This document shows positions 29,599 to 53,248 of a stretch of DNA of 64,000 nucleotides, piece after piece. The notes beneath the pieces are model-generated. The model worked only from the letters and a program-made list of their open reading frames with translations. It made no database searches and was not told where the DNA came from. This DNA is from Actinomyces israelii DSM 43320 (GTDB lineage Bacteria; Actinomycetota; Actinomycetes; Actinomycetales; Actinomycetaceae). The stretch spans positions 50,075 through 114,074 of the forward strand of contig NZ_KL544004.1 in assembly GCF_000711965.1 (NCBI RefSeq), in the 5' to 3' direction. Every line of letters starts with the position of its first letter. Position 1 is the stretch's first letter. The translations under genes and the position numbers were made by a program.

Positions 29599-30344
29599 AC
29601 GGGGATGACCTCCGTGTCGGTGCTCTCCAGGGACGGCAGCGGGTCCGTCGCCGGGGCGGCGGTGGTGACAACCGTCTGAAGGTCGGTGACCGGGCACACG
29701 GGCAGGAGCCCCGACCCCGGGAACTTGTCGGTGGTGGCCAGCAGGCAGGTGCGCTCGGCCGCCTCCCGGATGGCGTGCTTGATGGGAACCTCGGTACCTG
29801 TGGAGTCGAGCACCGTGCCGTCGGGGCGCAGCCCGGAGGCGCCCATGAAGGCCACGTCGGCGCTGAGCTGGGCCAGGGCCTGCAGGGGCAGGGCGCCCAC
29901 GAGGGAGAGGTAGGAGGGGCGCAGCAGCCCCCCGAGCACAATGAGCTCGACGGCGCGATCCTCGCGCAGCTCGTCGACCACGGCCAGCGAGGCGGTCACC
30001 ACGGTGATCTTCCGGCCGCGCAGGTGGCGGGCGGCCGCCGCGCAGGTGGTGCCGATGTCGATGAGCACGACGTCACGGTCTCGCACCAGGCGCGCCGCGG
30101 CGGCGCCGATGCGATCCTTCTCGGGCGCCGAGCGGACGGCCACGTGCGAGAAGGGCTGCTCGTCCGCCTCCGCGGCCCCGCCGCCGCGCACGCGCTGAAG
30201 CCTGCCCTGCCGGTCGAGGTGATTGAGGTCGCGGCGGATCGTCGACTCCGAGACCTCCAGGCGCCGGGCCAGGTCCGCGACGGTGGCCCCGCCCTGCTCG
30301 CGCACCAGGTCGAGTATCGCGGAACGGCGCTGTGGAACCAACAT
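29595..30344 (-). CDS. DeoR-family transcriptional regulator of the GH4/ABC sugar locus
   Basis: Two hundred forty-nine residues, ATG 30344. N-terminal helix-turn-helix (GATVADLARRLEVSESTIRR, about 20-39) and a C-terminal sugar-phosphate-binding domain (about 75-240: DVVLIDIGTTCAAAARHL and FMGASGLRPDG). Members are usually released by a phosphorylated sugar. TAATCT ends six bases upstream of the ATG, so the mRNA may be leaderless. The intergenic region it shares with the kinase gene contains two TTGCTC sites 20 bases apart. Confidence 0.9.
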   Translation of the reverse strand: MLVPQRRSAILDLVREQGGATVADLARRLEVSESTIRRDLNHLDRQGRLQRVRGGGAAEADEQPFSHVAVRSAPEKDRIGAAAARLVRDRDVVLIDIGTTCAAAARHLRGRKITVVTASLAVVDELREDRAVELIVLGGLLRPSYLSLVGALPLQALAQLSADVAFMGASGLRPDGTVLDSTGTEVPIKHAIREAAERTCLLATTDKFPGSGLLPVCPVTDLQTVVTTAAPATDPLPSLESTDTEVIPV

Positions 30345-30373
30345 GCTCGAAGATTACAGCACGTGCGCGATTC

Positions 30374-30399
30374 TTGCTCGACTATGACTGGATTTGCTC
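30374..30399. promoter_or_regulatory. Candidate DeoR operator pair between divergent sugar genes
   Basis: TTGCTC occurs at 30374-30379 and 30394-30399, two helical turns apart, in an AT-richer stretch of the 113-bp divergent region. Direct hexamer repeats on one helix face are typical of DeoR-family operators. Regulator identity is inferred from adjacency. Confidence 0.45.
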
Positions 30400-30457
30400 A
30401 TTATTGGCATCTGGTGGCATCATTGAGGCGGGATGCACTGCTGACAAGGAGGTCGCC

Positions 30458-31489
30458 GTGAGAAGCATCAGCCGTCCTGTCTGCGTTGCGGGCCCCGTCT
30501 TCCTCGACGTCGTCATGAGCGGCCTGTCCCGCGCCCCGCGCCCGGGGGAGGAGCAGTGGGTCCCGGAGTGTGCCGTCGCCCCCGGAGGCGGCGCCAACCA
30601 GGCCGTCGTGCTGGCGCGGCTCGGAGCGCCCGTGATGGTGCGCTGCGACCTGGGCGAGGACCGCGCCGGAGACCTGGTGCGCGGCGCCCTCGCCGAGGAG
30701 GGCGTTGACCTCCGCCACGCCCGCCGGGTGGAGCGCCAGCCGGTCACGGTGTCCCTGGGCCTCGACGGCGACCGGGCCATGACCAGCTGCGGGTCGGACG
30801 CCACCCCGCCGCTGGCGGGCCTCCCCGCCCCCTGCGCGCTCCTGGCCGACCTGCGCGCCCTGGCGGCGAACCGGAGGACCATCAGCTCCTGGCGCACCGG
30901 GCGGGAGCCCGCCACCGTCGTCGGCGACGTCGGCTGGGACGCCACCGGCCGATGGGACCCGGCCGACCTCGCCGCGCTCGACATCGCGGACGCCGTCACC
31001 CCCAACGACGCCGAGGCCGTGCGCTACACCCGCACCGGTTCAGCGCGCCACGCGGCCCGCGCGCTCGCCGAGCGGGTCCCGGTGGCCGTCGTCACGTGCG
31101 GGAGCCGCGGCGTCGTCGCCTGCGACGGCGAGCAGGAGATCGCCCTGCCGGCCGCCCCCGCCCGGGCGGTGGACGCCACCGGCGCCGGAGACTGCCTCAC
31201 CGCCGCCCTGACCTGGGGCCTGATCCACCGCCTGCCCCTGAGGACGGCCCTCAGCCTGGCGAGCATCGCCGCCTCCCTGGCGGTCGAGCACCCGGGCGGC
31301 TCGGCCGGCGCCCCCACCCCCGCTCGGCTCGCCGCGCGCGCCCGCCGGATCAGCCCCGTCCCCGGCTACGACCTCAGCTTCCTGGACCTGCTCGACGCCA
31401 TCGACGCCATCGACGCCATCGACGCCATCGACGACGTCCAGGCGATCTCCCCGACCACTCCGCAACCGCATGAAGGAGCCCTCCGATGA
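30458..31489 (+). CDS. PfkB-family carbohydrate kinase
   Basis: Three hundred forty-three residues from GTG 30458, placed by AAGGAGG. It has the PfkB N-terminal glycine pair (VAPGGGANQAVVLARLGAPV, about 36-55) and the ATP-site signature DATGAGDCLTAALTWGL (about 238-254) with catalytic Asp. Ribokinase-like enzymes phosphorylate free sugars or nucleosides. As first gene of the importer operon it could phosphorylate the incoming sugar before GH4 cleavage. The C-terminal tail contains a 9-bp repeat encoding Asp-Ala-Ile units. Confidence 0.88.
   Translation: MRSISRPVCVAGPVFLDVVMSGLSRAPRPGEEQWVPECAVAPGGGANQAVVLARLGAPVMVRCDLGEDRAGDLVRGALAEEGVDLRHARRVERQPVTVSLGLDGDRAMTSCGSDATPPLAGLPAPCALLADLRALAANRRTISSWRTGREPATVVGDVGWDATGRWDPADLAALDIADAVTPNDAEAVRYTRTGSARHAARALAERVPVAVVTCGSRGVVACDGEQEIALPAAPARAVDATGAGDCLTAALTWGLIHRLPLRTALSLASIAASLAVEHPGGSAGAPTPARLAARARRISPVPGYDLSFLDLLDAIDAIDAIDAIDDVQAISPTTPQPHEGALR
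31394..31429. repeat. 9-bp tandem repeat (4 copies) in the kinase 3' end
   Basis: GACGCCATC is repeated four times without error and encodes (DAI)4 in the disordered tail of the PfkB kinase. Copy-number change would alter only tail length, since nine is a multiple of three. Confidence 0.9.
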
Positions 31490-32880
31490 GCCCCACCCCT
31501 CTTGCCGCCGTTGTCGACTCGCGCCCCATGAGCCGCCGCGGCCTCCTGCTCGGCTCCGGTGCGCTCGCCGTCGCCGCCTCCCTGTCCGCCTGCGCCCCCA
31601 AGGGCGGCTCCGCCTCGGCCGGCGCCACCCCCGTGGAGGTGTCCACCGACATCGCCTCCGCGCCCGAGCAGATCCTCACGGTCTGGGACCAGGAGGTCCG
31701 CGGCAGCCAGAACGAGCAGATGCAGCGCCTCAACGACGCCTTCATGCGGGCCTGCCCGAACATCACCATCAACCGGGTCTCCCAGTCCTTCGACGACCTT
31801 CAGACCACCCTGCGCCTGGCGCTGACCGGCGAGGACGCCCCCGACGTCGTCGAGGCCAACAACAGCCGCAGCACCATGGGCCAGCTCGTCTCCGCCGGCC
31901 AGCTGCGCCCCCTGGACCCCTGGATCAGCGCCTACGGCTGGGACGCCGCCTACCCGCCCTCCATCCTGGCCTACTCCTCCTACTCCGCGGACGGAGCCAC
32001 CTTCGGGGAGGGCTCCCTGTGGGGCCTGCCCCAGGTCGGCGAGGCCGTGGGCATCTACTACTCCAGGTCGCGCCTGTCCGCCCTGGGCCTGGCCGCGCCC
32101 CGGAGCTGGGAGGACTTCACCGGCCAGCTCGCCACCATCAAGGACGCCGGGCAGACCCCGCTCATGCTCGGCAATGTCGAGAAGTGGCCCGGCCTCCACG
32201 TCTTCGGCCCCGTCCAGGGCGCCCACGTGGACGCCGCGACCATCCGCGCCCTCGGCTTCGGCAGTGCCGGGGCCTCCTGGAACACCCCGGAGAACCTCGC
32301 CGCGGCCACCGAGCTCCAGGGGTGGGCCACCAGGGGCTACTTCAACGACGGCTTCAACGGCCTCGACTACGACACCGTGTGGCAGAGCTTCTCCCGGGGC
32401 GACGGCGTCTTCCTCATGGCCGGCTCCTGGCTGGCGCCCGACCTGAAGGCGGTCATGGGCTCCGACGTCGCCTTCATCCTCCCGCCCAGGGCCGCGGGGA
32501 TGGACAAGGTCCGCACCACCGGCGGCACCGGCCTGCCCTTCGCGATCACCTCGGCGGCCAAGGACCCCAATGTCGCGGCGGCCTACATCAGCTTCATCAC
32601 CAGCGCCGAGGCCATGCAGGTCCTGGCCGACACCGGCAACGTCCCGGTCAACGGCACCGCCGGCTTCGCCACCGCCGAGGACTCCGTGACCAACGACGTC
32701 ATGCGCGCCTTCAGCGAGCTGACCACCGACGGCGAGATCCTGCCCTACCTCGACTACGCCACGCCGACCTTCGACCAGGTCCTGGGCGACGCCCTCCAGG
32801 GCCTCCTGGACGCACGGACCCGGCCCCAGGAGTTCACCGACGCCCTCCAGGCCTCCTACACCGAGTTCATCGACGGCTGA
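31486..32880 (+). CDS. ABC sugar transporter solute-binding lipoprotein
   Basis: Four hundred sixty-four residues, ATG 31486 overlapping the kinase stop by four bases. A twin-arginine start (SRRGLLLGSG) and lipobox LSAC (Cys36) mark it as a lipidated, probably Tat-exported protein on the outer face of the membrane. The mature part has the family-1 solute-binding layout (ILTVWDQEVRGSQNEQMQRL, then AFMRACPNI, then LTGEDAPDVVEANNS). It captures an oligosaccharide and delivers it to the two permeases downstream. No ATPase gene is present; a shared MsmK/MsiK-type ATPase must be encoded elsewhere. Confidence 0.92.
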   Translation: MSPTPLAAVVDSRPMSRRGLLLGSGALAVAASLSACAPKGGSASAGATPVEVSTDIASAPEQILTVWDQEVRGSQNEQMQRLNDAFMRACPNITINRVSQSFDDLQTTLRLALTGEDAPDVVEANNSRSTMGQLVSAGQLRPLDPWISAYGWDAAYPPSILAYSSYSADGATFGEGSLWGLPQVGEAVGIYYSRSRLSALGLAAPRSWEDFTGQLATIKDAGQTPLMLGNVEKWPGLHVFGPVQGAHVDAATIRALGFGSAGASWNTPENLAAATELQGWATRGYFNDGFNGLDYDTVWQSFSRGDGVFLMAGSWLAPDLKAVMGSDVAFILPPRAAGMDKVRTTGGTGLPFAITSAAKDPNVAAAYISFITSAEAMQVLADTGNVPVNGTAGFATAEDSVTNDVMRAFSELTTDGEILPYLDYATPTFDQVLGDALQGLLDARTRPQEFTDALQASYTEFIDG

Positions 32881-32976
32881 CGGCCGCTGACGGCCGCTGA
32901 CGGCCGCGGCCCGACCGCCACCGCAGGCCCGCAGGCCGCCACGCCCGCACAGGAGACGCAGGAGACGCAGGAGACC

Positions 32977-33903
32977 ATGAGCGCACAGACCGACAGGCCC
33001 CGCCCGCCGGCGCCGCACCTCCCGGCCAAGCCGTCCAGGCGCAGCGGACGCAGGCTCGCCGCGCTCGGCCTCATGGCCCCGCCCCTGGCCCTCTACGGGG
33101 CGTTCATGCTCTACCCCCTGGCCCGCGTGCTCCTGCTCTCCCTCTACCGGTGGGACGGGCTGGGCACGGGGACCTGGGCGGGGGCGGACAACTACGTGCA
33201 GACCCTCTCCGACGACCGCCTCCTGGGCGCCTTCGGGCACGCCCTGGTCCTCATCGTCTTCTACGCCCTCATCCCCCTGGCCATCGGCCTGGTGCTGGCC
33301 GACCTGCTCACACGCGCCCGGCTGAAGGGCCTCGGCTTCTTCCGCACGGTGGTGTTCCTGCCCCAGGTGGTCGCCATGGTGGTGCTGGCGGTCGCCTGGC
33401 GGCGCATCTACGCCCCCGACGGCTTGCTGAACTCAGCCCTGCGCGCGCTGGGCCTGGACGCCCTGACCCGGGCCTGGCTGGGGGACTTCTCGACGGCGCT
33501 CATCGCCGTCGGCCTCATCGGCACCTGGGTGAGCACCGGGCTGGTGACGGTGCTCCTCATGTCCGGGATCGCCGCCATCCCCAGGGACTACTACGAGGCC
33601 GCCACGCTCGACGGGGCGGGCTGGTGGCGGCGCCTGTGGTACGTGACCCTCCCCGGAGTCAGGGCCGAGGTCCTCGTGTCACTCACCCTGACCATTATCG
33701 CCGCGCTCAAGACCTTCGACCTGGTCTACGTCACCACCTCGGGAGGGCCGGGCGCATCCACGACCGTGCCCTCCTACGAGGTCTACAACCAGGCTTTCCG
33801 GCTGGGCCGGGTCGGGACGGCCTCCTCCCTCGCCGTCATCCTGACCGCGGTCATCTTCGTCATCAACCTGACGATCAACCTCTTCGGGGAGCGCGGACGA
33901 TGA
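32977..33903 (+). CDS. ABC sugar transporter permease (MalF-type)
   Basis: Three hundred eight residues, ATG 32977. Six transmembrane helices; EAATLDGAGWWRRLWYVTLP (about 206-225) is the EAA loop that docks the ATPase. The 96-base gap from the binding-protein gene contains short tandem repeats (CTGACGGCCG three times; GAGACGCAG twice). The second supplies the AG-rich ribosome-site region. The stop overlaps the next ATG (ATGA). Confidence 0.92.
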   Translation: MSAQTDRPRPPAPHLPAKPSRRSGRRLAALGLMAPPLALYGAFMLYPLARVLLLSLYRWDGLGTGTWAGADNYVQTLSDDRLLGAFGHALVLIVFYALIPLAIGLVLADLLTRARLKGLGFFRTVVFLPQVVAMVVLAVAWRRIYAPDGLLNSALRALGLDALTRAWLGDFSTALIAVGLIGTWVSTGLVTVLLMSGIAAIPRDYYEAATLDGAGWWRRLWYVTLPGVRAEVLVSLTLTIIAALKTFDLVYVTTSGGPGASTTVPSYEVYNQAFRLGRVGTASSLAVILTAVIFVINLTINLFGERGR

Positions 33904-43069: not shown

Positions 43070-43914
43070 GCACTGTCACCGTTCCCGCCGACAACGCCTT
43101 CACCCTCGCCGCCTGCGCTGAGATGATCTTCACCGACCTGCCCTTCCTCGACCGCGCGCAGCGCATCGCCGCCCGCGGGCTGAAGGTCGAGATGTGGGAC
43201 TGGTCCGCCAAGGACCTCGACGCCCTGGCCTCCGCGCGCGCCGACGGCGTCGAGGTCGTCTCCATGACCGGCTACATCGAGGGCGACCTCACCACCGACG
43301 ACGGCACCGCCCGCCTGCTGGCCACCGCCGAGCAGTCCCTGGCGGCCGCCGAGAAGATCGACTGCCCGCGCCTCAACGTCCACGGCACCGGGCTGGGGGA
43401 GGGCGGCATCCCCGTCGTCGCCAACGAGCACCCCACGCCCGCGGACTGGCTGCGCGCCGCTCACACCCTGCGGCGCCTGGCCGAGCTCGGAAGGGCGGCG
43501 GGCCGCACCTTCACCCTGGAGAACCTCAACCTGCCGGTCGACCACCCCGGATGCCCCTTCGCCCTGGCCCGGGACACCCGCACCCTGGTCCGGGCCGTCG
43601 ACTCCCCGCACCTGCGGATGAACCTCGACCTCTACCACGCCCAGATCGGGGAGGGGAACCTCATCGAGCTGTGCCGCGCCTGCCGGCCGTGGATCGGGGA
43701 GATCCAGGTCGCCGACGTCCCCGGGCGCGCCCAGCCCGGCACTGGCGAGATCAGCTACAGCGCCGTTGCCGCCGCACTGGGGGCCATGGGCTACCACGGC
43801 ACTGTCGCCATGGAGGCCTTCGCCACCGGGAGCAGCGACGACGCCCTCGACGACTTCATCCGGACCTTCTCCCTGCCGCCTGAGTCCCTGCCGTCCGAGG
43901 GGGCGCCCGCATGA
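43066..43914 (+). CDS. Hydroxypyruvate isomerase-like TIM-barrel protein
   Basis: Two hundred eighty-two residues from ATG 43066. The AP-endonuclease-2/xylose-isomerase-like barrel shows ACAEMIFTDLPFLDRAQRIA, MTGYIEGDL, TLENLNLPVDHPGCPF (metal Glu), LRMNLDLYHAQIGEGN and IGEIQVADVPGR, which match Hyi-type isomerases. Expected reaction is aldose-ketose interconversion of a 3-6 carbon sugar. It is first in the LacI-regulated operon, overlapping the transporter gene by four bases. The true substrate may not be hydroxypyruvate. Confidence 0.82.
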   Translation: MSTVTVPADNAFTLAACAEMIFTDLPFLDRAQRIAARGLKVEMWDWSAKDLDALASARADGVEVVSMTGYIEGDLTTDDGTARLLATAEQSLAAAEKIDCPRLNVHGTGLGEGGIPVVANEHPTPADWLRAAHTLRRLAELGRAAGRTFTLENLNLPVDHPGCPFALARDTRTLVRAVDSPHLRMNLDLYHAQIGEGNLIELCRACRPWIGEIQVADVPGRAQPGTGEISYSAVAAALGAMGYHGTVAMEAFATGSSDDALDDFIRTFSLPPESLPSEGAPA

Positions 43915-45346
43915 GCGCCGCGACCAACCGGCCCGCCTCCGACCGGCCCGCGCCTGACCAGCGCGGCGTCGACCGCCGTCTGCTGACCATCCGCTCCATC
44001 GCCACCCTGGGCGGCCTGCTCTTCGGCTACGACACCGGGGTCATCTCCGGGGCGCTGCCCTTCCTGAGGAACCCGGTCGCCGAGGGCGGCCTGGCGCTGA
44101 CCGCCTTCGACGAGTCGATCGTCACCAGCGCCCTGACCGTGGGGGCGGCCCTGGGGGCCCTGAGCGGCGGGAGGCTGTCCGACCGCTTCGGCCGCAGGCG
44201 CAACATTATGATGGTGGCCGTCATCTTCCTCATCGGCGCGCTGGGCTGCTCGCTGGCTCCCAGCATGCCGGTGCTCACCGTCTTCCGCTTCGTCCTCGGG
44301 CTGGGCGTCGGCGGGGCGTCGGCGGGGCATCGGCAACCGTGCCGGTCTACCTCTCCGAGCTCTCACCGGTGGAGATCCGCGGCACCATGGTCTCCCGCAA
44401 CGAGCTCATGATCGTCACCGGCCAGCTCCTGGCCTACACCTGCAACGCCGTCATCGCCACGGTGTGGCCGGGCGCCAACGCCTGGCGGTGGATGCTGGTC
44501 CTGGCCACCCTGCCGGCGATCGGGCTGTGGGTCGGCATCCACCTGCTGCCCGAGTCGCCCCGCTGGCTGGCCCGCAAGGGACGCCTCGAGGAGATGTGGG
44601 CCGTCCTGAACGAGGTCCGCACCCCCGACCGGGTGGAGGAGGAGGGCGAGGACATCGTGCTCCGCGTCGAGGAGGAGGCCCGCATGGGCGGCGGCTCCTG
44701 GGCCGACCTGAAGGTGCCGTGGATCCGCAGGATCACCCTCATCGGCATCGGCCTGGCCCTGCTGTCGCAGCTCACCGGGGTCAACGGGATCATGTACTAC
44801 GCCCCCACCATCCTGATCTCCACGGGAATGGGGTCGCAGGCCTCGATCGTGGCGACCATCGCCAACGGGGCGGTCTCGGTGATCTCGGTGTACATCGGCA
44901 TCACCTACTTCCTCAGGCGGCTGCCGCGCCGCCGCATGATCGTGACCGGGCAGATCGGCTGTGTGGCCTCGCTGATCGCCCTGGGGCTGGTCTTCCTGCT
45001 GCCCGAGTCGATGGTGCGCAGCCTCCTGGTGCTGCTGTTCATGCTCTCCTTCCTCTACTTCATGCAGTGCTTCATCGGCGTGACCTTCTGGCTCATGCTC
45101 TCCGAGATCTTCCCCATGCGCGTGCGCGGCCTGGCCAACGGCATCGCCGTGCTCTGCAACTGGGTGGGCAACGTCATCGTCACCTTCACCTTCCCGAATC
45201 TCATCGAGGCGGTCCAGGGCAATGTGTTCTTCATCTTCGCGGCCGTCAACCTGGGGACCCTGGCCTTCTACGTCAGGTTCCTGCCCGAGACCAAGGGGCA
45301 CTCCCTGGAGTCCCTGGAGCGCCACTTCGAGGAGAGGTACTCCTGA
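43911..45346 (+). pseudogene. MFS sugar-porter transporter disrupted by an 11-bp duplication
   Basis: The first frame (43911-44411) gives helices 1-4 with GGLLFGYDTGVISGALPFL and the RFGRRR loop, then runs into nonsense after GLGVGGAS. The second frame (from 44339) resumes at VPVYLSELSPVEIRG and continues through PESPRWLARKGR to PETKGHSLESLE, the sugar-porter C-terminal signature. Tandem GGCGGGGCGTC/GGCGGGGCATC (44310-44331) accounts for the shift: removing one 11-base unit restores a single 474-residue protein. It is either a recent loss of function, a slippage-switchable gene or a sequence error. Confidence 0.85.
44310..44331. repeat. 11-bp tandem duplication causing the frameshift
   Basis: GGCGGGGCGTC (44310-44320) is followed directly by GGCGGGGCATC (44321-44331), differing at one base. 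The unit is not a multiple of three, so copy number decides the reading frame of the transporter gene. Confidence 0.9.
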
Positions 45347-45400: not shown

Positions 45401-45423
45401 TCGGGTCGGCCTCCCCGGCCCGG

Positions 45424-46110
45424 CTACAGCAGGGTCTCGCGCCCGAAGGTGCCCGCCCAGTCCCGGGTGAAGCCGGCCAGGGCGGCGGTGACGTCGGCGG
45501 ACTCCAGGGCGCCGCGCACCACCTCGGGGGCCGCGGTCACAGCGTGCGCCCCGGCGGCCAGGGCCCGGTTGACCTGTCCGGCGTTCTTGAAGCTCGCCGC
45601 CAGGACCTTCGAGCCCGTGCCGGCCCGGTCGGCCATCGCCGCCAGGTGGGCCACCACCGCGTAGGGGTCCACATCCAGGCTGGCCATGCGGTTGACGTAG
45701 GGGGCCAGGTAGTCCGCCCCCGCCGCAATGGCCATGGTGCCCTGAAGGCGGGTGTAGACGGCGGTGGCGGTCACGCGCACGCCGTCGGCCTTGAGCGCCT
45801 TGATGGCGCGCAGGCCCTCCTCGGTCACCGGGACCTTGACGTACACCCCCTCGTCCACGCCGTCGAGGAGGGCACGGGCCTCGGCCAGCATCCCGTCGGC
45901 ATTCGGGGCGATCACCTGCACGTGCAGGCCGCGCTCGGCGCCGATGATGCTCCGGACGGCGCGCAGGTGGTCCAGCAGGTCCACCGCGCCCTCCTTCTTG
46001 ATAATGCTGGGGTTGCATGTGATCCCCGTCAGGGGGTAGATGTCCGCGCCGGCCTCGACCTGGGCGAGGTCGGCGGTGTCGAAGAGGATCTCCAGTCCCG
46101 TGGTGGTCAT
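45424..46110 (-). CDS. Fructose-6-phosphate aldolase/transaldolase-like (FSA, TalC)
   Basis: Two hundred twenty-eight residues, the size of the small FSA subfamily rather than full transaldolase. LEILFDTADLAQVEAGADIY, TGITCNPSIIKKEG, EGVYVKVPVTEEGLRAIKAL (Schiff-base Lys in VKVP) and KVLAASFKNAGQVNRALAAG are all intact. FSA enzymes cleave fructose-6-phosphate or its 1-deoxy analogue into a C3 ketone/ketol and glyceraldehyde-3-phosphate. It is downstream of, and likely co-transcribed with, the glycyl radical enzyme 35 bases away. The same gene pair occurs in E. coli (fsaA next to ybiW-ybiY). Confidence 0.9.
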   Translation of the reverse strand: MTTTGLEILFDTADLAQVEAGADIYPLTGITCNPSIIKKEGAVDLLDHLRAVRSIIGAERGLHVQVIAPNADGMLAEARALLDGVDEGVYVKVPVTEEGLRAIKALKADGVRVTATAVYTRLQGTMAIAAGADYLAPYVNRMASLDVDPYAVVAHLAAMADRAGTGSKVLAASFKNAGQVNRALAAGAHAVTAAPEVVRGALESADVTAALAGFTRDWAGTFGRETLL

Positions 46111-46145
46111 ATCCGTGCTTCTGCTCCTCGTCCTGTCCGCCCGGC

Positions 46146-48608
46146 TCAGAGGCTCTGCTCCGTGCGGGCGATAATGTCGTCCTGCGTGGCCCGGGACAGC
46201 ACGTTGAAGAAGGCGGAGTAGCCGGCCACGCGGACAATGAGGTCGCGGTGCTTCTCCGGGTGGGCCTGGGCGTCCAGGAGGGTCTCGCGGGAGACCACGT
46301 TGTACTGGACGTGGAAGCCCTCCAGGCGGTTGAAGAAGGTCCGCAGCATCATCATGAGCTTGGCGCGGTCCTCCGGCTTGCGCAGCATGGAGGGGTTGAC
46401 CTTCTGGTTGAGCAGGACTCCGCCGGTGATGTCGTGCGTGGGGAGCTTCCCCACGGACTTGAAGACCGCGGTGGGACCGTTGACGTCGGCGCCGTGGCTG
46501 GGGGAGCAGCCCTCCGCCAGCGGCTCGCCGGCGCGGCGGCCGTCGGGCGTGGCGGCGGTGCCGGCGCCCTGGGGGACGTTGGCGGAGATGGAGGAGGTGC
46601 CGGCGTAGTAGACGCCGCCGATCGGGCCGCGGCCGTAGCGGGTGTTGCGGCTCTTGCGGATCTCGTCAATGCAGCTGTTGTAGGCGTCCACGAGCAGGGC
46701 GTCGACGTAGTCGTCGTCGTTGCCGTACTTGGGGGCCGCCACGAGCTGCTCGCGGATCTGCTCGCCGCGCTCGCCGGCGAAGTCGGACTGCAGGGCCGCC
46801 CACAGCTCGTCGGCCCCCATGCTGCGGTCCTCGAAGACGCACTTCTTGATGGCGGCCAGGGAGTCGCCCAGGTTGGCGATGCCCACCTGGAGGCCGGAGA
46901 TGTAGTCGTAGACGGCGCCGCCCTCCTTCAGGGGCCTGCCGCGGCCGATGCAGTCCTCCACCAGGGCCGAGCACAGGATGTCCGGCACCAGCTCCTCCAG
47001 CGCCAGGTCGCAGGCCGAGTCCAGGGTGACGGCGGCCCGCTGGAAGGCGCGCACGGTTACGTCCCAGGCGCGCATGACCTCGTCGAAGGAGGTCATGTCC
47101 CCCAGGCGGCCGCAGGCCGGGGCCAGGCGCGTGCCCGTGGCCGGGTCGAGGCCGTCGTTGAGGGCCACCAGCAGCGTCTTGGGGAAGTTGAGGAAGCTCA
47201 TGCCGGTGCAGCGGTAGCCCCACTTGCCGGGTACGGCCACCTCCACGCAGCCGATGGCGGAGAAGTCGCGGGCGTCGGCGGGGTCGACCCCCTTCTCAAT
47301 GAGCGAGGGGATGATGACCTCGTCGGAGTTGAAGGCCGGCATCCCGAACCCCAGGCGCATGACCTCGACGCACTCGGAGAGGAACTCCTCACTCAGCCCC
47401 CGGTGGTAGCGCACCGTCAGGTTGGGCTGGGGCAGGTGGGTCTGGGCGACGGCGCGCAGCACCACGTAGGAGAAGGCGTTGACCGCGTCCCTCCCGTCCC
47501 GGGTCTGCCCGCCGACGGTGACGTTCTGGTAGAGCGGGCCGCCGGCGGAGAAGCGGGTGTGGGACCAGCTGCGCAGCTTGGCCACGGTGATGACCTTGAG
47601 CCACAGGTTGGTCAGCAGCTCGGTGGCCGAGTCCCGGGTGATGCGGCCGGCGGCCAGGTCGGCGTCGTAGAAGGGGCCCATGTACTGGTCGAAGCGCCCA
47701 AAGCTCAGGGAGTGCCCATTGGACTCGATCTGCAGGACCGCCTGGATGAGCCAGACCGCCTGGACGGCCTCGTGGAGCGTGGTGGCCGGGTGCTCGGGCA
47801 CGCGGCGCAGGATCCGCGCCATCTCGGTCAGCTCGGCGCGGCGCTCGGCGGCCGGCTCGGCGGCGGCCAGGTCCTCGGCCAGGTCGGCGTAGCGGTGGGC
47901 GAAGGCGATGACGGCGTCGATGACGATGAGGACCGCGCGGTAGAAGTAGGACTTCCTCAGGCCCTCGGCGTCGGTGGCGTCCAGGGCGTCGAGCGCCTCC
48001 CGGGTGCGCCGCTTGTAGGCGGCCAGGCCCTCGGCCAGGAGCCGCGGGTAGTTGACCGCGATGTGGGCGTCGCCGGAGGTGATATTGCCCTCGGGGTGGA
48101 TGATGCCCAGGTCGTAGAAGACGCGCGCCTGCGGCGGCATGTTCGCCAGCCCGTGCTCCTTGAGGGTCCGCCCCTCCCAGAAGGGGGCGATGTCCCGCAG
48201 GGCCTGCTTGGTCTCCTCGGTGATGGTGTAGCGGTCGCCGGGGCGCTTGTCGAACTCGTCGAGCTCCTCGATGACCCAGTCCATCGCGTACTCGGGCATG
48301 ATGGCGCTGGCCCGGTTGGTGGAGGCCAGGTTGCCCGCGATGAGGGTCTCGGGCTCGATGTAGATGCTCATGCCCTCCAGGACGGAGCGCAGCATGTGGG
48401 CGCGCCTGAGGACGACGGGGTCGGCCGCGTGCTCCCGGTAGACGCGGGTGGTGATGGTGGCCCGCTCCGCGCAGACCGATGGCGTGGTCTCCAGGAGGCG
48501 GTCGCGCCAGGCGGCCATGCGCGGGGTGAGGGCGCCGAAGTGCGGCTCGGGGGCCGCCTGGGCGGCGTCGGCGCCGCGGGTGGATGCGGGGGCCTGGAGG
48601 ATGGTCAT
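46146..48608 (-). CDS. Glycyl radical enzyme of the dehydratase/lyase (GCVE) class
   Basis: Eight hundred twenty residues from ATG 48608. The thiyl site is AIGCVEV (Cys454, Glu456) and the glycyl loop RVAGYSAFF (Gly796), 24 residues from the C-terminus. A single Cys followed by Val-Glu is the pattern of eliminases such as glycerol dehydratase and the E. coli YbiW/PflD group. True pyruvate formate-lyase has two adjacent cysteines there, so this is not a PFL despite probable database labels. The neighbours (FSA aldolase, divergent activase, ROK kinase) suggest a sugar-phosphate substrate. It needs anoxia. Confidence 0.9.
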   Translation of the reverse strand: MTILQAPASTRGADAAQAAPEPHFGALTPRMAAWRDRLLETTPSVCAERATITTRVYREHAADPVVLRRAHMLRSVLEGMSIYIEPETLIAGNLASTNRASAIMPEYAMDWVIEELDEFDKRPGDRYTITEETKQALRDIAPFWEGRTLKEHGLANMPPQARVFYDLGIIHPEGNITSGDAHIAVNYPRLLAEGLAAYKRRTREALDALDATDAEGLRKSYFYRAVLIVIDAVIAFAHRYADLAEDLAAAEPAAERRAELTEMARILRRVPEHPATTLHEAVQAVWLIQAVLQIESNGHSLSFGRFDQYMGPFYDADLAAGRITRDSATELLTNLWLKVITVAKLRSWSHTRFSAGGPLYQNVTVGGQTRDGRDAVNAFSYVVLRAVAQTHLPQPNLTVRYHRGLSEEFLSECVEVMRLGFGMPAFNSDEVIIPSLIEKGVDPADARDFSAIGCVEVAVPGKWGYRCTGMSFLNFPKTLLVALNDGLDPATGTRLAPACGRLGDMTSFDEVMRAWDVTVRAFQRAAVTLDSACDLALEELVPDILCSALVEDCIGRGRPLKEGGAVYDYISGLQVGIANLGDSLAAIKKCVFEDRSMGADELWAALQSDFAGERGEQIREQLVAAPKYGNDDDYVDALLVDAYNSCIDEIRKSRNTRYGRGPIGGVYYAGTSSISANVPQGAGTAATPDGRRAGEPLAEGCSPSHGADVNGPTAVFKSVGKLPTHDITGGVLLNQKVNPSMLRKPEDRAKLMMMLRTFFNRLEGFHVQYNVVSRETLLDAQAHPEKHRDLIVRVAGYSAFFNVLSRATQDDIIARTEQSL

Positions 48609-48705
48609 TGCTGCTGTCTCTCGTTGTGGGCGGCCGGCTGCCGCGGGCGGGTCGGTGGGGCCCGGGGGAGGGAGGTTCGCCGGATCTCTTGCTCCCTTCG
48701 AGCAC

Positions 48706-48743
48706 AAGTATATATACTTACGAACGAAAGATACAAGTACTTG
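48706..48743. promoter_or_regulatory. Two palindromes in the divergent glycyl-radical promoter region
   Basis: AAGTATATATACTT (48706-48719) and CAAGTACTTG (48734-48743) are perfect palindromes sharing ACAAGTA and TACTT half-sites, in the 148-bp gap between the enzyme and activase genes. A similar CAGGTACCTG lies at 52029-52038 before the ROK kinase gene. They are probably binding sites for one regulator controlling both directions. Confidence 0.5.
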
Positions 48744-48756
48744 CGGAGGAGTCTCG

Positions 48757-49536
48757 GTGCCGGCTGACAGGGGGCAGGTCCTCAACATCCAGAAGTTCTC
48801 CATCCACGACGGGCCGGGTATCCGCACCGTCGTCTTCCTCAAGGGCTGCCCCATGAGCTGCCCCTGGTGCGCCAACCCGGGGTCCCGCAAGCTCCAGGCT
48901 CTCCAGGTCCACGACCCCGACCGGCCCGGGGTCCTCGTGCCCGACTCCAGGCAGTGGACGGTCCAGGAGGTCCTCGACGTCGTCATGCAGGACAGGCCCT
49001 TCTACGAGGAATCCGGCGGCGGGGCCACCCTGTCCGGGGGGGAGGCCCTCGTCCAGCACCGCTTCGCCGTCGCCCTGCTGGACGCCTTCCGTGCCGAGGG
49101 CCTGAACAACGCCATCGAGACCACCGGGTACTGCGCCCCCGCCATCTTCGAGAAGGTCCTGGACCGTATCGACACCCTCCTTATCGACGTCAAGCACTGG
49201 GATGCCGTCGCCCACCGCGTGTGGACCGGTGTGGACGACGCGCTGCCCAAGGCGAACCTGCGCCGCGCCCTGGAGCGGGGTGTGCCCACCGTGGTGCGCA
49301 TCCCCTGCGTCCCCGGGGTCAATATCACGCGCGACGACGCCCACGGCTTCGCCCGGGTCCTGCGGGGCCTGGGGGTCGAGGAGGTCCAGCTCCTGCCCTT
49401 CCACCAGTTCGGGGAGCGCAAGTACGAGCTGCTGGACTGGGAGTACCGCTTCTCGGGGGTGCCGGCCCTCCACGAGGAGGACCTGGAGGATTTCCGCCGC
49501 ACCCTGGCCGGCGACGGCGTCGCCGCCTACTTCTAG
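48757..49536 (+). CDS. Glycyl radical enzyme activase (radical SAM)
   Basis: Two hundred fifty-nine residues from GTG 48757 with GCGGAGGAG upstream. The radical-SAM cluster motif is CPMSCPWC (about residues 30-37) within the activase signature FSIHDGPGIRTVVFLKGC, followed by NPG. The SAM-binding segments ATLSGGEAL and AIETTGYC are present. The ferredoxin-like insert with two extra [4Fe-4S] clusters, usual in activases of GCVE-class enzymes, is absent between residues 40 and 80. It installs the radical on Gly796 of the divergently encoded enzyme. Confidence 0.9.
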   Translation: MPADRGQVLNIQKFSIHDGPGIRTVVFLKGCPMSCPWCANPGSRKLQALQVHDPDRPGVLVPDSRQWTVQEVLDVVMQDRPFYEESGGGATLSGGEALVQHRFAVALLDAFRAEGLNNAIETTGYCAPAIFEKVLDRIDTLLIDVKHWDAVAHRVWTGVDDALPKANLRRALERGVPTVVRIPCVPGVNITRDDAHGFARVLRGLGVEEVQLLPFHQFGERKYELLDWEYRFSGVPALHEEDLEDFRRTLAGDGVAAYF

Positions 49537-49590
49537 GCGTCTGCTCTCAGTCCCGGCCCCGGGCCGCCACTCTCCCGCCCGGCTTCAAGC

Positions 49591-49645
49591 GCCCGGGGCG
49601 ACGGTGTCCTCGCCGCAGGAGCGCGGCGAGGACACCGCCCCGGGC
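49591..49645. terminator. Long bidirectional hairpin between activase and EIIC genes
   Basis: GCCCGGGGCG...GGTGTCCTCGCCGC (49591-49616) pairs with 49623-49645 over 23 bases apart from a 3-base bulge, with a 6-base loop. It lies in the gap of about 160 bases between two convergent genes. Confidence 0.75.
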
Positions 49646-49698
49646 CGGGGCCGGGCCCCGGAGGCTGTGCGAGGCGCCTTTCCGGAAGTCCGGCCTTC

Positions 49699-50892
49699 TC
49701 ACGTGCGGATCGCCTCACCGTCCTTCAGCGCTGCCGGCTCACTGGGGAAGCGCATGATGAGTGAGAGCGCGAAGGCCAGGACCATTGCGCCCAGACACCC
49801 GACGGCCATCAGGGCGAAGCCGTGGCCCAGGAAGACCGGCAGGGTGGCCAGGCCCGGGAAGGCGAAGCTCATGGCGGAGGCCCCGGAGGCTCCAACGATG
49901 GCGCCTCCTACGGCGCCCGAGATGCACACGGCGACCAGGGGCTTCTTCAGCGGAAGGGTCACGCCGAACATGGCGGGCTCGGTAATGCCGAAGCAGGCGC
50001 TCATCGCGGCGGACAGGCAGATCGCGCGATAGGGGCGCGAGCGGGTCTTGATGCACACGGCCAGGCAGGCGCCTGCCTGGGCGAAGACCGCTGGGGCGAA
50101 GAAGGCCAGGATCGTGTCCGATCCGAACTCGCTGATATTGCTTATTGCGATGGGCACCAGCGCCCAGTGGAAGCCGAAGAGCACCATGAGCTGGATGAGT
50201 CCTCCCAGGATCGTACCGGCGGCAACGGGGCTCAGTGCGTAGACCCAGTTGTAGCCGGCGGCCAGGGCGCTGCCGATCGTCGTGCCGAGCGGCCCCAGCG
50301 CGACCAGGGTGGCGCCGCCGACGACGAAGACGCTGATCAGTGGGGTGAAGGGGCCCTCGACAACCTCGGGCAGCAGGCGCCTGCACGCCGCCTCCACGTA
50401 GCGCAGCAGCACGACGGCCAAGATGATCGGGATGACGCTGGCGGCGTAGTTCACCTTCCCCACGGGGATTCCTACGAAGGTGACGGGCTGGCCGCCGGCG
50501 AGCGCCTCTGTCAGCTTCGGGTAGAGCAGCACCACGGCGATGAAGACGGCGGTGAAACGGTTGGCCTTGACCAGGTTCGCCGTGGTGAAGGCCAGGAAAA
50601 CCGGCAGGAAGGCGAAGAACGCGTCCGCCATGGCATTGAGAACGGCGTACGCGGAGCTCTCCGTGGGGAGCCGGCCGGTCATGGTCAGGGCCGCGAGCAG
50701 GCCCTTGAGGATGCCAGCGGCGGCCAAGGCGTTGAGCAGCGGAAGGAAGATCTGCGAGATCGCACTGATGGCCGCATCGAGCAGCCCCCGGGGTGAGAAC
50801 CCGGAGCCCTTCGAAGTGGTGCTCTCCGGCGGCTCAGGGCGGTTCTCGGGTGCAGGTGCCGGCTGCTCGGCGGGGTGCGCGGCGGTGCTCAC
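49699..50892 (-). CDS. PTS-type EIIC permease, beta-glucoside/sucrose family, lacking EIIB and EIIA
   Basis: Three hundred ninety-seven residues; GTG 50892 overlaps the kinase stop (GTGA). After a Pro/Glu-rich 30-residue tail come about ten transmembrane helices with GGLIQLMVLFGFHWALVPIA, SACFGITEPAMFGVTLPLKK and GASGASAMSFAFPGL, typical of BglF-like EIIC. The EIIB domain with its phosphocysteine, normally fused at the N-terminus, is missing, and no EIIB or EIIA gene is nearby. It may act as an uncoupled facilitator whose sugar is phosphorylated by the ROK kinase encoded upstream, or use a distant EIIB. Confidence 0.85.
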   Translation of the reverse strand: MSTAAHPAEQPAPAPENRPEPPESTTSKGSGFSPRGLLDAAISAISQIFLPLLNALAAAGILKGLLAALTMTGRLPTESSAYAVLNAMADAFFAFLPVFLAFTTANLVKANRFTAVFIAVVLLYPKLTEALAGGQPVTFVGIPVGKVNYAASVIPIILAVVLLRYVEAACRRLLPEVVEGPFTPLISVFVVGGATLVALGPLGTTIGSALAAGYNWVYALSPVAAGTILGGLIQLMVLFGFHWALVPIAISNISEFGSDTILAFFAPAVFAQAGACLAVCIKTRSRPYRAICLSAAMSACFGITEPAMFGVTLPLKKPLVAVCISGAVGGAIVGASGASAMSFAFPGLATLPVFLGHGFALMAVGCLGAMVLAFALSLIMRFPSEPAALKDGEAIRT

Positions 50893-51965
50893 TGGAACAT
50901 CAGCTCCGCAGCGCCGATAATGCCGAAGTCGTTGCCGAGCTCGGCCTCCTTGAAGTACACGGGCATGTCGTTGTCGTTGTAGGCGTCGAAGAGCTCGCGC
51001 ACGCGGGGAAAGAGCCGATCGCCGAAGTTGAGCAGACCGCCGCCGAAGACGAAGCAGTTGATATTGAGCAGCACGTAGAGGTTGTAGGTCCACACCGCCA
51101 TGTACCGGGCCATCTGCTCCACCGCCCACCGGGCCAGCTCGTCGTCGGCGTCCCAGGCCTCTTCCAGGGTGCGTGCGGTGATATTCTGCGCGCCCCCGGC
51201 GAGCTCGGGCATCATGGACGCCGCGCCCGCCTCAAGACGGGCGCGGACATGCTTGACGATCATGGACCCAGAGCAGTACGACATGAGGCAGCCGCGGTTG
51301 CCGCAGCCGCACTCGATGCCCTCGCCCGGCGTGACGATCATGTGCCCCGACTCCCCGGCCCAGCCGTAGCGGCCGCGGAAGAGGTCGTTGTTGATAATGA
51401 TGCCCGAGGAGATACCGGTCGACACCGGGCAGTAGAGCATGTGCCGGAATCCCCGCCCCGCCCCGTGACGGTGCTCGGCGAGCGCCCCGGTGTGCGCGTC
51501 GTTGTCGATGAGGACGCGCACGCTCCCTCCCAGGGCGGCCCTGAGATAGGAGCGCGCCGGGACGTCGTGCAGCAGCGGAAGGTTGGCTGTCTTGATGATC
51601 CGGCCCTCCTCGTACAGGACGTAGGAGGGCATGCCGATGCCGATGCCGCGGAGCTCGTCGATCTTCAGCCCCTGGTCCTCAGCCAGTGCGCGGCAGGTCC
51701 CGACAATGCTGTCGAGGAACTCCTCGGGGGAGGCGGAGGGGTCGGCGGGGACCTGGACGCGGCTGGTCAGCTCGCGCTCCCCGTTGAACAGCCCGTAGGC
51801 GACCTTGGTTCCGCCGACGTCGACTCCGATGGTGAAGCCGGTGCGGGTGGTGGGCGTGAAGACGGATGAGCTGGTGCTGCGGGGCAGCGTCTCAGTTCCG
51901 GGCGGCCGGGTGTCGCGCTGGCGGCGCAGTGAGCCAATGTGCTCAATGGGTACGGTCAGAGTCAT
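50889..51965 (-). CDS. ROK-family sugar kinase
   Basis: Three hundred fifty-eight residues, ATG 51965 behind AGAGAGG. The ATP-phosphate motif IGVDVGGTKVAYGLF (about residue 45), catalytic IDNDAHTGALAEH, ROK signature around GHMIVTPGEGIECGCGNRGC with the CxCGxxGC zinc site, and LLNINCFVFGGGLL are intact. It lacks an N-terminal helix-turn-helix, so it is a kinase, not a repressor. Glucose-like hexoses are the usual substrates. It forms a two-gene operon with the EIIC permease. Confidence 0.88.
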   Translation of the reverse strand: MTLTVPIEHIGSLRRQRDTRPPGTETLPRSTSSSVFTPTTRTGFTIGVDVGGTKVAYGLFNGERELTSRVQVPADPSASPEEFLDSIVGTCRALAEDQGLKIDELRGIGIGMPSYVLYEEGRIIKTANLPLLHDVPARSYLRAALGGSVRVLIDNDAHTGALAEHRHGAGRGFRHMLYCPVSTGISSGIIINNDLFRGRYGWAGESGHMIVTPGEGIECGCGNRGCLMSYCSGSMIVKHVRARLEAGAASMMPELAGGAQNITARTLEEAWDADDELARWAVEQMARYMAVWTYNLYVLLNINCFVFGGGLLNFGDRLFPRVRELFDAYNDNDMPVYFKEAELGNDFGIIGAAELMFQ

Positions 51966-52028
51966 AGTAGGCACCTCTCTGTGCGGATTCCTTGGACTGG
52001 TTCGCGGTACGCGGATCATGGACAGGTA

Positions 52029-52038
52029 CAGGTACCTG
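52029..52038. promoter_or_regulatory. Palindrome upstream of the ROK kinase gene
   Basis: CAGGTACCTG is a perfect 10-base palindrome preceded by a further ACAGGTA. It resembles CAAGTACTTG at 48734-48743. The rest of the 260-bp gap 51966-52225 shows no gene; it must hold the ROK-EIIC promoter. Confidence 0.4.
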
Positions 52039-52225
52039 CCATTGGCCGCAATGGCCCGGGGCCGGCTCCCGGTTGGAGCCGCCCTGAGGCTTCACGGGTG
52101 GAAGGACGGGTGCGCGTCACGGACCCGGCGGCCAGTGGCCGGGGCCTGCGCTGTGGATGTCGGGATGGCGCCTCGGGCGTGCCTCGGCGTCGGCCGGGCG
52201 GCCTCGCTGCCGCCCGGTGACTGGA

Positions 52226-53020
52226 CTAGAGCCTGTGGGGGCGAGCCTTGCGGTCGCTCACCGCTCCGTCGGGCGCGACCGTGGAGACGTCAACGCCCGC
52301 GGAGGTCAGCTCCTCGACCATCTGCTCGCTGATCGCCGCATCGGTCCACACACGGGTCACGGCGGAGGCCTCCAGCAGGGGGACCGGGCCGTGGGAGCCG
52401 AACTTGTCCGACTCGGTGAGGATGATGACGTGCTCGGCACGCTCGGCCATGGTGCGCACGGCCTCCGCCCTGAGCTGGTCCCTGCCGGTGAAGCCGACAC
52501 GGGGGGAGAACCCGTCGGTTCCGATGAACAGCTTGTCGACAAGGAACTGACTGACGGCCTGGCGGATCATGGGACCCACCATCACCTGGGAGTCGTTCTG
52601 GTAGCTGCCGCCGAGCAGGATGGTCGAAGCGTGCGGCTGGCGTCTGATGTGCTCGGCGATGAAGGCCGAGTTGGTCACAATGGTGCAGGAGCGCTTGGTG
52701 CGGGCGATCTCCCCGGCCAGAAGCGAGCAGCACGATCCGGCCTCGATCATGACCGTCTCCCCCTCGGAGACGGAGCCCGCCGCCGCCTGCGCGATGCGGA
52801 GCTTGGCCGCGTAGTGGTGGGCGATCCTGCCCGCGGGATCGTCGCTGGACACCGGCGTCGCGATCCCCCGTTCCCGGCGTACCAGGCCCTGCTCCTCCAA
52901 CGTGTCCAGATCCTTGCGGATCGTGACCTGAGAGACTGACAGGGCCTCGGCCAGAGCGGTGACGGATGCCTCGCCGTCGCGAGTAACGGTCTCGAGGATC
53001 GCCATTTGACGTGCGGCCAT
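52226..53020 (-). CDS. DeoR-family transcriptional regulator
   Basis: Two hundred sixty-four residues from ATG 53020; the ATG nine bases earlier is too close to AAGGAGG. Helix-turn-helix EASVTALAEALSVSQVTIRK (about 15-34), then the phosphosugar-binding domain (VMIEAGSCCSLLAGEIARTK, GTDGFSPRVGFTGRDQLRAE). It lies upstream of the ROK-EIIC operon in the same direction and probably regulates it and the glycyl-radical genes. A 12-bp inverted repeat in its own promoter (53113-53139) suggests autoregulation. Confidence 0.88.
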   Translation of the reverse strand: MAARQMAILETVTRDGEASVTALAEALSVSQVTIRKDLDTLEEQGLVRRERGIATPVSSDDPAGRIAHHYAAKLRIAQAAAGSVSEGETVMIEAGSCCSLLAGEIARTKRSCTIVTNSAFIAEHIRRQPHASTILLGGSYQNDSQVMVGPMIRQAVSQFLVDKLFIGTDGFSPRVGFTGRDQLRAEAVRTMAERAEHVIILTESDKFGSHGPVPLLEASAVTRVWTDAAISEQMVEELTSAGVDVSTVAPDGAVSDRKARPHRL

Positions 53021-53112
53021 GGTGTGCATGCCTCCTTTCTACCCTATGCGGCGGGCTGATGGACACAAGCGTACGCAACCAAGAAAGTTGCAAAAAAGGG
53101 ACATTAGTCCTT

Positions 53113-53139
53113 CGTTAGAAAGTTCTGAACTTTCGAACG
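53113..53139. promoter_or_regulatory. Inverted repeat upstream of the DeoR gene, candidate operator
   Basis: CGTTAGAAAGTT (53113-53124) and AACTTTCGAACG (53128-53139) are 12-bp arms with one mismatch around CTG. The GAAA...TTTC symmetry is common in DeoR-family operators. The site is 93 bases before the start codon. The rest of 53140-53248 shows nothing identifiable. Confidence 0.5.
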
Positions 53140-53248
53140 GAAGTCTTGGTGGCGGTTCGTCATGCGGTGACACCTCCTCGCGCCGGTCCAGCGGACTGCG
53201 GGCGCGGACAACCGGGCGATGGGGCGGGAAAGGGGCGGCGCCCCGGCC

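Follow-up and report, generated by a model that had tools for sequence, protein, structure and literature searches.

Gene content of the cluster

The stretch analysed here, hereafter the window, comprises 64,000 nucleotides of the genome of Actinomyces israelii DSM 43320 (contig NZ_KL544004.1). At 45424-53029 it harbours a cluster of genes for an FSA-type aldolase, a YbiW-type glycyl radical enzyme (GRE), the GRE activase, a lone EIIC permease of the phosphotransferase system (PTS), a ROK-family kinase and a DeoR-family regulator, all present and intact. The initial annotation had listed the same parts, including the GCVE and Gly796 motifs of the GRE and the aldolase gene 35 bp from it, and both reading of the frames and Pfam matches bear this list out. 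All Pfam scores exceed the corresponding cut-offs: PF02901 (684.7 bits), PF01228 (120), PF00923 (143.8), PF04055 (52.4), PF00480 (182.7), PF02378 (110.5) and PF00455 (134.7). The order of transcription on the minus strand is deoR, ROK kinase, EIIC, GRE and FSA. The activase gene is divergent from the GRE gene and convergent with that of EIIC; as it lies on the opposite strand, the cluster is not a single operon. Neither this arrangement nor the absence of EIIB and EIIA partners for EIIC had been noted in the initial annotation.

For comparison, at least 589 relatives of the GRE were found and the best 80 loci were studied, which introduces a bias towards close relatives. Counts of genes at these loci refer to a distance of 8 kb from the GRE unless stated otherwise. 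The host genome consists of 4.03 Mb in 102 contigs, the window's contig being denoted C10.

The GRE belongs to the YbiW type

The GRE (46146-48608, minus strand, 820 residues) has the GCVE motif with Cys454 and Glu456, and Gly796 within RVAGYSAFF; these three residues are invariant among 30 aligned GREs. Among characterised enzymes it is closest to E. coli YbiW, with 51% identity over 802 residues. In a phmmer comparison with PDB sequences, YbiW-type chains come out on top (6xs4, 877.7 bits; 8yjn, 873.8; 8id7, 873.7), followed at a distance by glycerol dehydratase (1r8w, 595.5), diol dehydratase (5i2a, 578), 9rco (564), entitled 1,2-propanediol dehydratase, CutC (at most 559.6) and PflD (514.1). 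On these scores we rejected glycerol, a diol or choline as the substrate, and the assignment to the YbiW class made in the initial annotation is upheld by them and, with respect to PflD, by phylogeny. In a tree of 90 rows, the window GRE groups with those of Actinomyces oricola, A. glycerinitolerans and propionibacteria (seven rows, support 100), as part of an 81-row clade that YbiW adjoins, PflD and other GREs falling outside. This tree was obtained by a short search with SH-aLRT support only and includes PflD but not glycerol, diol or choline GREs; YbiW sits on a long branch (1.82), at a point flagged by the program as one where long branches meet. One locus (L089) was dropped from it and two others (L020 and L062) are represented by their longest open part.

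A PflD-type substrate is less likely, as judged from the tree branch, the conserved columns and the residues that follow the catalytic Cys. Among 26 clade members, 308 columns are nearly invariant; YbiW agrees with them at 253, PflD at 187 and two other GREs at 170 and 172. Behind the catalytic Cys, the window GRE and YbiW share the stretch GKWGYRCTGMSF, which differs in PflD. The window GRE is only about 39% identical to PflD (294 of 762 aligned positions). PflD resembles the window enzyme in GRE family and kind of reaction but sits on a separate branch of the tree. The predicted model of the window protein (mean pLDDT 82.9) has the GRE fold. Given the similarity to YbiW, the phmmer scores, the tree, the motifs and the model, we predict that the window GRE is a 1,5-anhydroglucitol-6-phosphate lyase.

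A ROK subfamily linked to GREs has lost a conserved acid

The gene of the ROK kinase (PF00480; 50889-52019, minus strand) likely starts at the ATG at 51965, behind a ribosome-binding-site-like stretch, and would then code for 358 residues. The query for the PDB comparison, the class-wide search and the motif work began at 51968, one codon before that start. The protein has the DxGxT motif (DVGGT), the catalytic Asp (in DND), the ExGH motif (ESGH) and the Cys-rich zinc motif (CGCGNRGC). The list of ROK motifs in the accessible part of PMC5458393 ends with CxCGxxGCx(E/D). The acid that closes this motif is replaced by Met in all 13 GRE-linked ROK proteins with a readable motif, i.e. the window protein and 12 others.

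These other proteins are encoded in a conserved neighbourhood, with a window-type ROK gene beside the GRE gene or within approximately 3 kb of it. Such ROK-type loci represent 13 of the 80, to which spirochaetes contribute nine and clostridia four (L009, L011, L012, L013, L016, L017, L019-L024 and L044), and the motif is readable in 12 of them. Three additional loci (L030, L065 and L080) have only a distant ROK match (24-28% identity) and were left out of this count. The window protein shares 50-61% identity with the 12 spirochaete and clostridial ROK proteins. Homologues at E <= 1e-50 were identified in 13 of 39 genomes drawn from those of the 80 loci, one of them (G506) being only 43% identical.

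As for background ROK proteins, they were collected from 50 loci, all from the window's phylum, whereas the GRE-linked ones mostly belong to other phyla. The acid is found in all 45 motif-bearing rows (44 E, 1 D), the remaining five loci being without a motif match; as two rows (L213 and L216) are one gene, this corresponds to 44 distinct proteins, 44 of which have the acid. The Fisher values for the motif (4e-13) and for the FSA distribution discussed below (2e-7) are overstated, since related rows were taken as independent.

In the NagK protein of P. shigelloides (PsNagK), Asp187 engages the 1'-OH of the sugar, and changing it lowers the efficiency of the enzyme, according to the accessible part of PMC10031466. 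E. coli NagK has a Glu at the position of the motif acid, and in our alignment of the two proteins Asp187 falls on that position. 1,5-Anhydroglucitol is glucose without its 1-OH. As a kinase of this sugar would not need the motif acid, the best reading of the window ROK sequence is that of a dedicated anhydro-sugar kinase, which we predict to be a 1,5-anhydro-sugar 6-kinase. Because the acid is replaced by Met, the protein is not classed as a canonical ROK glucokinase, and its score with the ROK glucokinase model, 184.1 bits for a cut-off of 260.35, points the same way even if this model is still the closest curated one. Both the score and the motif led us to reject glucokinase as the main reading. 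No ROK kinase for 1,5-anhydroglucitol was found among the matches listed in our literature search.

A lone EIIC, an FSA-type aldolase and a short activase

The EIIC gene (49699-50892, minus strand, 397 residues) has a GTG start that overlaps the stop codon of the ROK gene. The protein belongs to the beta-glucoside/glucose family; it matches positions 2-319 of the 319 of PF02378 and has kept the GITEP and FGFHW motifs, but the match to the EIIBCA model TIGR01995 is confined to positions 94-452 of 618. No EIIB or EIIA domain, fused or nearby, was found on contig C10. The other six EIICs of the host share their contig with an EIIB match, except for the weak EIIC match on contig C5. Searches of 297 genomes from the order and of 39 GRE genomes gave matches in 20 genomes each, the host being counted in the former, and none of the relatives exceeds 43% identity. 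Their open frames have at least 460 residues, with two exceptions (429 and 393 residues). The predicted EIIC model (mean pLDDT 86.2) aligns with the solved EIIC of MalT (5iws; Z 18.9, rmsd 5.0 over 335 residues). It scores higher with PTTBC (9a6a; Z 40.4, rmsd 9.4) and PtsG (9a3b; Z 24.4), both of which are integrative models. No PDB sequence matched at 0.001. We infer that the lone EIIC is a sugar facilitator serving the ROK kinase.

The FSA-type aldolase (45424-46110, minus strand, 228 residues; PF00923) scores 277.1 bits with NF009299 for a cut-off of 214 and is under the cut-offs of NF009296 and TIGR00875. It is 40% identical to E. coli FsaA and has kept the VKVPVT segment, whose lysine is presumably the active-site lysine. 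The activase (48757-49536, plus strand, 259 residues, GTG start) is a radical SAM protein (PF04055) with a CxxxCxxC motif and a score of 245.1 bits with TIGR02494 for a cut-off of 174.35. It is 32% identical to E. coli YbiY and represents a short form, in which approximately 40 residues that follow the radical SAM cysteines are absent.

A proposed kinase-fed radical pathway

According to the accessible part of a review (PMC12441222), Ma et al. (2024) described gut bacteria that phosphorylate 1,5-anhydroglucitol and 1,5-anhydromannitol by PTS, the 6-phosphates being converted to 1-deoxyfructose-6-phosphate by YbiW and PflD. The titles of the PDB entries correspond, with YbiW in complex with 1,5-anhydroglucitol-6-phosphate in 8id7 and PflD bound to 1,5-anhydromannitol-6-phosphate in 8id0. 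The YbiW chemistry cited in the initial annotation is thus backed by the first of these titles and by the review, and the central chemistry is not new. No paper devoted to this pathway was found among the matches listed in our literature search. In the work of Ma et al., FSA is said to split 1-deoxyfructose-6-phosphate and GldA to reduce hydroxyacetone. Relative to that pathway, the window cluster has GRE and FSA genes; GldA is not part of it, and the host genome was not searched for GldA.

We consider it probable that the cluster serves the catabolism of 1,5-anhydroglucitol or of a close 1,5-anhydrohexitol, as a version of the published radical-mediated glycolysis that is fed by a kinase. The sequences suggest that the PTS step has apparently been replaced by a kinase, and this mode of entry is apparently the new part, as the radical chemistry is already known from E. 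coli. The sugar would enter through the lone EIIC by facilitated diffusion. The ROK kinase, whose sugar site appears to have lost the acid that binds the 1-OH, would then phosphorylate O6 with ATP. By similarity with YbiW, the activase would generate the glycyl radical at Gly796, and Cys454 and Glu456 of the GRE would drive ring opening under anoxia to yield 1-deoxyfructose-6-phosphate. The FSA is predicted to split this product into glyceraldehyde-3-phosphate and hydroxyacetone. Finally, DeoR would control the cluster, perhaps via a palindrome upstream of its gene. In its outline this is the ROK-fed, YbiW-type sugar-phosphate route put forward in the initial annotation, which finds support in the placement of the GRE, the score and motif of the ROK protein and the published chemistry.

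Several observations weigh against this interpretation. The published entry step is PTS phosphorylation (PMC12441222, accessible part), and the host genome has other PTS parts (6 EIIB, 7 EIIC and 5 EIIA matches). Loss of the motif acid need not mean an anhydro sugar, since there are ordinary ROK proteins without it: in the accessible parts of the respective papers, it is absent in the NagK of Pseudoalteromonas (PMC10031466) and its place is taken by Asn in the NanK of L. monocytogenes (PMC5458393). A dedicated kinase is not strictly needed either, as hexokinases and the ADP-dependent glucokinase act promiscuously on 1,5-anhydroglucitol without such a residue change (PMC12965863, accessible part). 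The fold cannot separate YbiW from other GREs: the model of the window enzyme reaches Z 41.9 with YbiW (8id7), but Z 43.8 with 1,2-propanediol dehydratase (9rcp) and Z 42.1 with choline lyase (5a0u). A. oricola has a GRE, an activase and an FSA with approximately 95% nucleotide identity to those of the window but no ROK or EIIC gene beside them, and no ROK match at E <= 1e-50 was found in its genome. Lastly, an FSA gene is present at none of the 13 ROK-type loci, compared with 51 of the 67 others, and an FSA-like match (E <= 1e-10) at only three of the 13 corresponding genomes, one of them a fragment. The ROK-GRE pair may therefore serve a different route elsewhere. The absence of FSA from these loci is uncertain, as many of the genomes are metagenome bins; nevertheless, the stretch downstream of the GRE gene is at least 660 bp long in ten of the 13, and FSA typically lies less than 300 bp away (46 of 51 FSA loci). 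Any match to the transaldolase/FSA family was found in five of the 13 genomes.

The lack of FSA near the GRE at the ROK-type loci, together with the D-lyxose isomerase, lactonase-family and Gfo/Idh/MocA genes found among them and the GH92 gene at another locus (L007), would fit the same machinery acting on a different sugar, for instance 1,5-anhydromannitol or some other hexitol-like sugar that has no 1-OH. In the window, however, FSA adjoins the GRE, whose post-Cys stretch is that of YbiW and not that of PflD, the enzyme of the 1,5-anhydromannitol-6-phosphate type, and we regard this option as unlikely.

We also judge it improbable that EIIC borrows EIIB and EIIA from other transporters and functions as an ordinary PTS permease, the 6-phosphate being made at uptake and the ROK protein having a minor or salvage role. 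The host genome does encode further EIIB and EIIA domains, one of the EIIB matches lying in an open frame of 95 residues, the published pathway is PTS-fed, and EIIA cross-talk among transporters of the glucose family has been shown, in the accessible part of the published work. Nevertheless, the same part reports that splitting EIIB from EIIC impaired glucose phosphorylation in the strains used. Furthermore, contig C10 is without EIIB and EIIA matches, the EIIC gene overlaps the kinase gene, and the 13 ROK-type loci, which belong to two other phyla, have no match within 8 kb to the chitobiose-, mannose- and BglF-type PTS queries, the only types counted.

As for an ordinary glucokinase or a sugar-sensing protein placed here by chance, it is very unlikely: the best solved relatives of the ROK protein by sequence are glucokinases, as is the closest curated model, and the motif acid is missing from some ordinary ROK kinases too, but the score is below the cut-off of that model, no helix-turn-helix domain was matched in the protein by Pfam, and the subfamily adjoins GREs across phyla with the acid lost in every member read.

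If the cluster does feed 1,5-anhydroglucitol into the radical route by way of a kinase, it represents a second way into that route. It is then tempting to speculate, quite tentatively, that the Met-bearing ROK proteins of spirochaetes, clostridia and this Actinomyces form a dedicated family of 1,5-anhydro-sugar kinases that frees the YbiW-type route from the PTS, that the window EIIC has been separated from its phosphorylating domains and now acts as a plain facilitator, and that the kinase-GRE pair of spirochaetes feeds an FSA-free route. Another use of this radical product is indicated by the ROK-GRE loci at which FSA is absent. 1,5-Anhydroglucitol occurs in food and blood. It is described as a food glucose analogue, and two inherited neutropenias are traced to its 6-phosphate (PMC12441222 and PMC12965863, accessible parts). 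A bacterial 1,5-anhydroglucitol kinase would be a tool to measure or remove the sugar, and Met as opposed to Glu or Asp would be an easy residue test of the way in which sugar kinases discriminate between anhydro sugars and glucose.

Neighbourhoods of related GREs

Across the 80 loci, activase genes are present at 67, DeoR at 58, FSA at 51, GldA at nine, a chitobiose-type PTS at 12 and a mannose-type PTS at two. Among the window and these loci, only the window combines a ROK gene of this kind with a nearby FSA gene. The E. coli ybiW-ybiY-fsaA neighbourhood also groups a YbiW-type GRE, an activase and an FSA, and the residues around the catalytic Cys are alike. In contrast, no kinase or regulator gene directly adjoins the E. 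coli genes, and entry is by PTS according to the review (PMC12441222); the window adds the ROK kinase, the lone EIIC and DeoR, and its activase, a short one, is encoded on the opposite strand. Streptococcal and enterococcal clusters with the order DeoR, chitobiose-type PTS, GRE, FSA and GldA (e.g. L027, L028 and L038) share with the window a GRE (61-64% identity), DeoR, FSA and an activase. They differ from it by having all three parts of the chitobiose-type PTS and GldA, and no window-type ROK. At spirochaete and clostridial ROK-type loci (L011, L016, L019, L023 and L044), the Met-motif ROK subfamily is found beside a GRE 66-69% identical to that of the window, with DeoR and an activase at most loci that are long enough. 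Unlike the window, they have no match to its EIIC and no FSA nearby, and three of the 13 (L011, L019 and L022) have ABC sugar-transporter permeases.

Other genes found near the kinase gene at ROK-type loci code for a D-lyxose isomerase (L009 and L023), a lactonase-family protein (L009 and L019) and a Gfo/Idh/MocA oxidoreductase (L009). Two of these loci harbour, a few kb from the ROK-type GRE, a second GRE gene of another branch with an adjoining activase match (L022, 2960-5320; L023, 1707-4061); that of L022 is 35-36% identical to the window GRE. At three loci (L005, 6508-7353; L007, 5013-5846; L057, approximately 1311-1997), the kinase encoded beside the GRE is ROK-like but of a different sort and lacks the zinc motif; this perhaps represents a second, independent kinase recruitment. 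In the Propionicimonas locus (L007), a GH92 gene lies beside that kinase gene.

Distribution and history of the cluster

The initial annotation considered the complete set unusual in an actinobacterium. This holds for the set with the ROK kinase, as a search at E <= 1e-60 found the latter in one of 394 genomes of the window's class, the host itself. GRE relatives at E <= 1e-100 are present in seven of 200 genomes of the family, four of them at 73-100% identity with the host included, and GRE and FSA occur together also in Coriobacteriia (e.g. L070 and L081).

The nearest named relative of the GRE among the matches listed is that of A. oricola (95%). The A. oricola locus (L004) has 94.7% nucleotide identity to window positions 45416-49616 and 89.3% to 52265-53185, and 68-77% in the flanks. 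Such a difference between the cluster and its flanks suggests that the cluster has moved between Actinomyces species, probably recently; it lies between thyA and dfrA in A. oricola and beyond both in the window. The two matching stretches are separated by 2,648 bp, which include the EIIC and ROK genes, in the window and by 15 bp in A. oricola. The break in A. oricola corresponds to the loop of a hairpin present in the window, of which one arm is kept with no significant hairpin remaining (z 0.16), and the DeoR frame of A. oricola continues past the break, to 9062. As one hairpin arm is kept and the DeoR frame crosses the junction, loss in A. oricola appears likelier than insertion, and the simplest reading of these sequences is a joint loss of EIIC and ROK. 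A late insertion of the two genes in the window is less likely, as judged from this one junction. Their joint loss would fit EIIC and ROK working as a pair.

Regulator, non-coding elements and neighbouring genes

The DeoR-family regulator (52226-53029, minus strand; PF00455 and HTH_DeoR) is preceded by a palindrome at 53113-53139, with arms of 13 bases, one mismatch and a spacer of one base, which is a possible DeoR operator. The region between the GRE and activase genes (48609-48756) is A+T-rich in one stretch and has what may be a DeoR half-site. An operator link between this region and DeoR was not retained: it rests on an 11-mer with one mismatch that is common to this region and to the upstream region of deoR, and such a match is no more than expected by chance. 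Between the convergent ends of the EIIC and activase genes lies the hairpin mentioned above (49590-49645, outer end approximate), with an inner stem of 13 pairs and a loop at 49617-49622. Folded as DNA it has a z-score of -4.19, and none of 200 shuffles was equally stable; it is possibly a two-way terminator. Scans for T-run terminators and for promoters yielded no candidates.

Beyond the FSA gene, a sugar-porter gene at 43911-45346 is split between overlapping frames, 43911-44411 and 44339-45346, and homology extends across both, which points to a frameshift or a sequencing error. A separate sugar-uptake locus at 28192-33903 encodes a GH4 glycosidase, a PfkB-type kinase, a solute-binding protein and an ABC permease.

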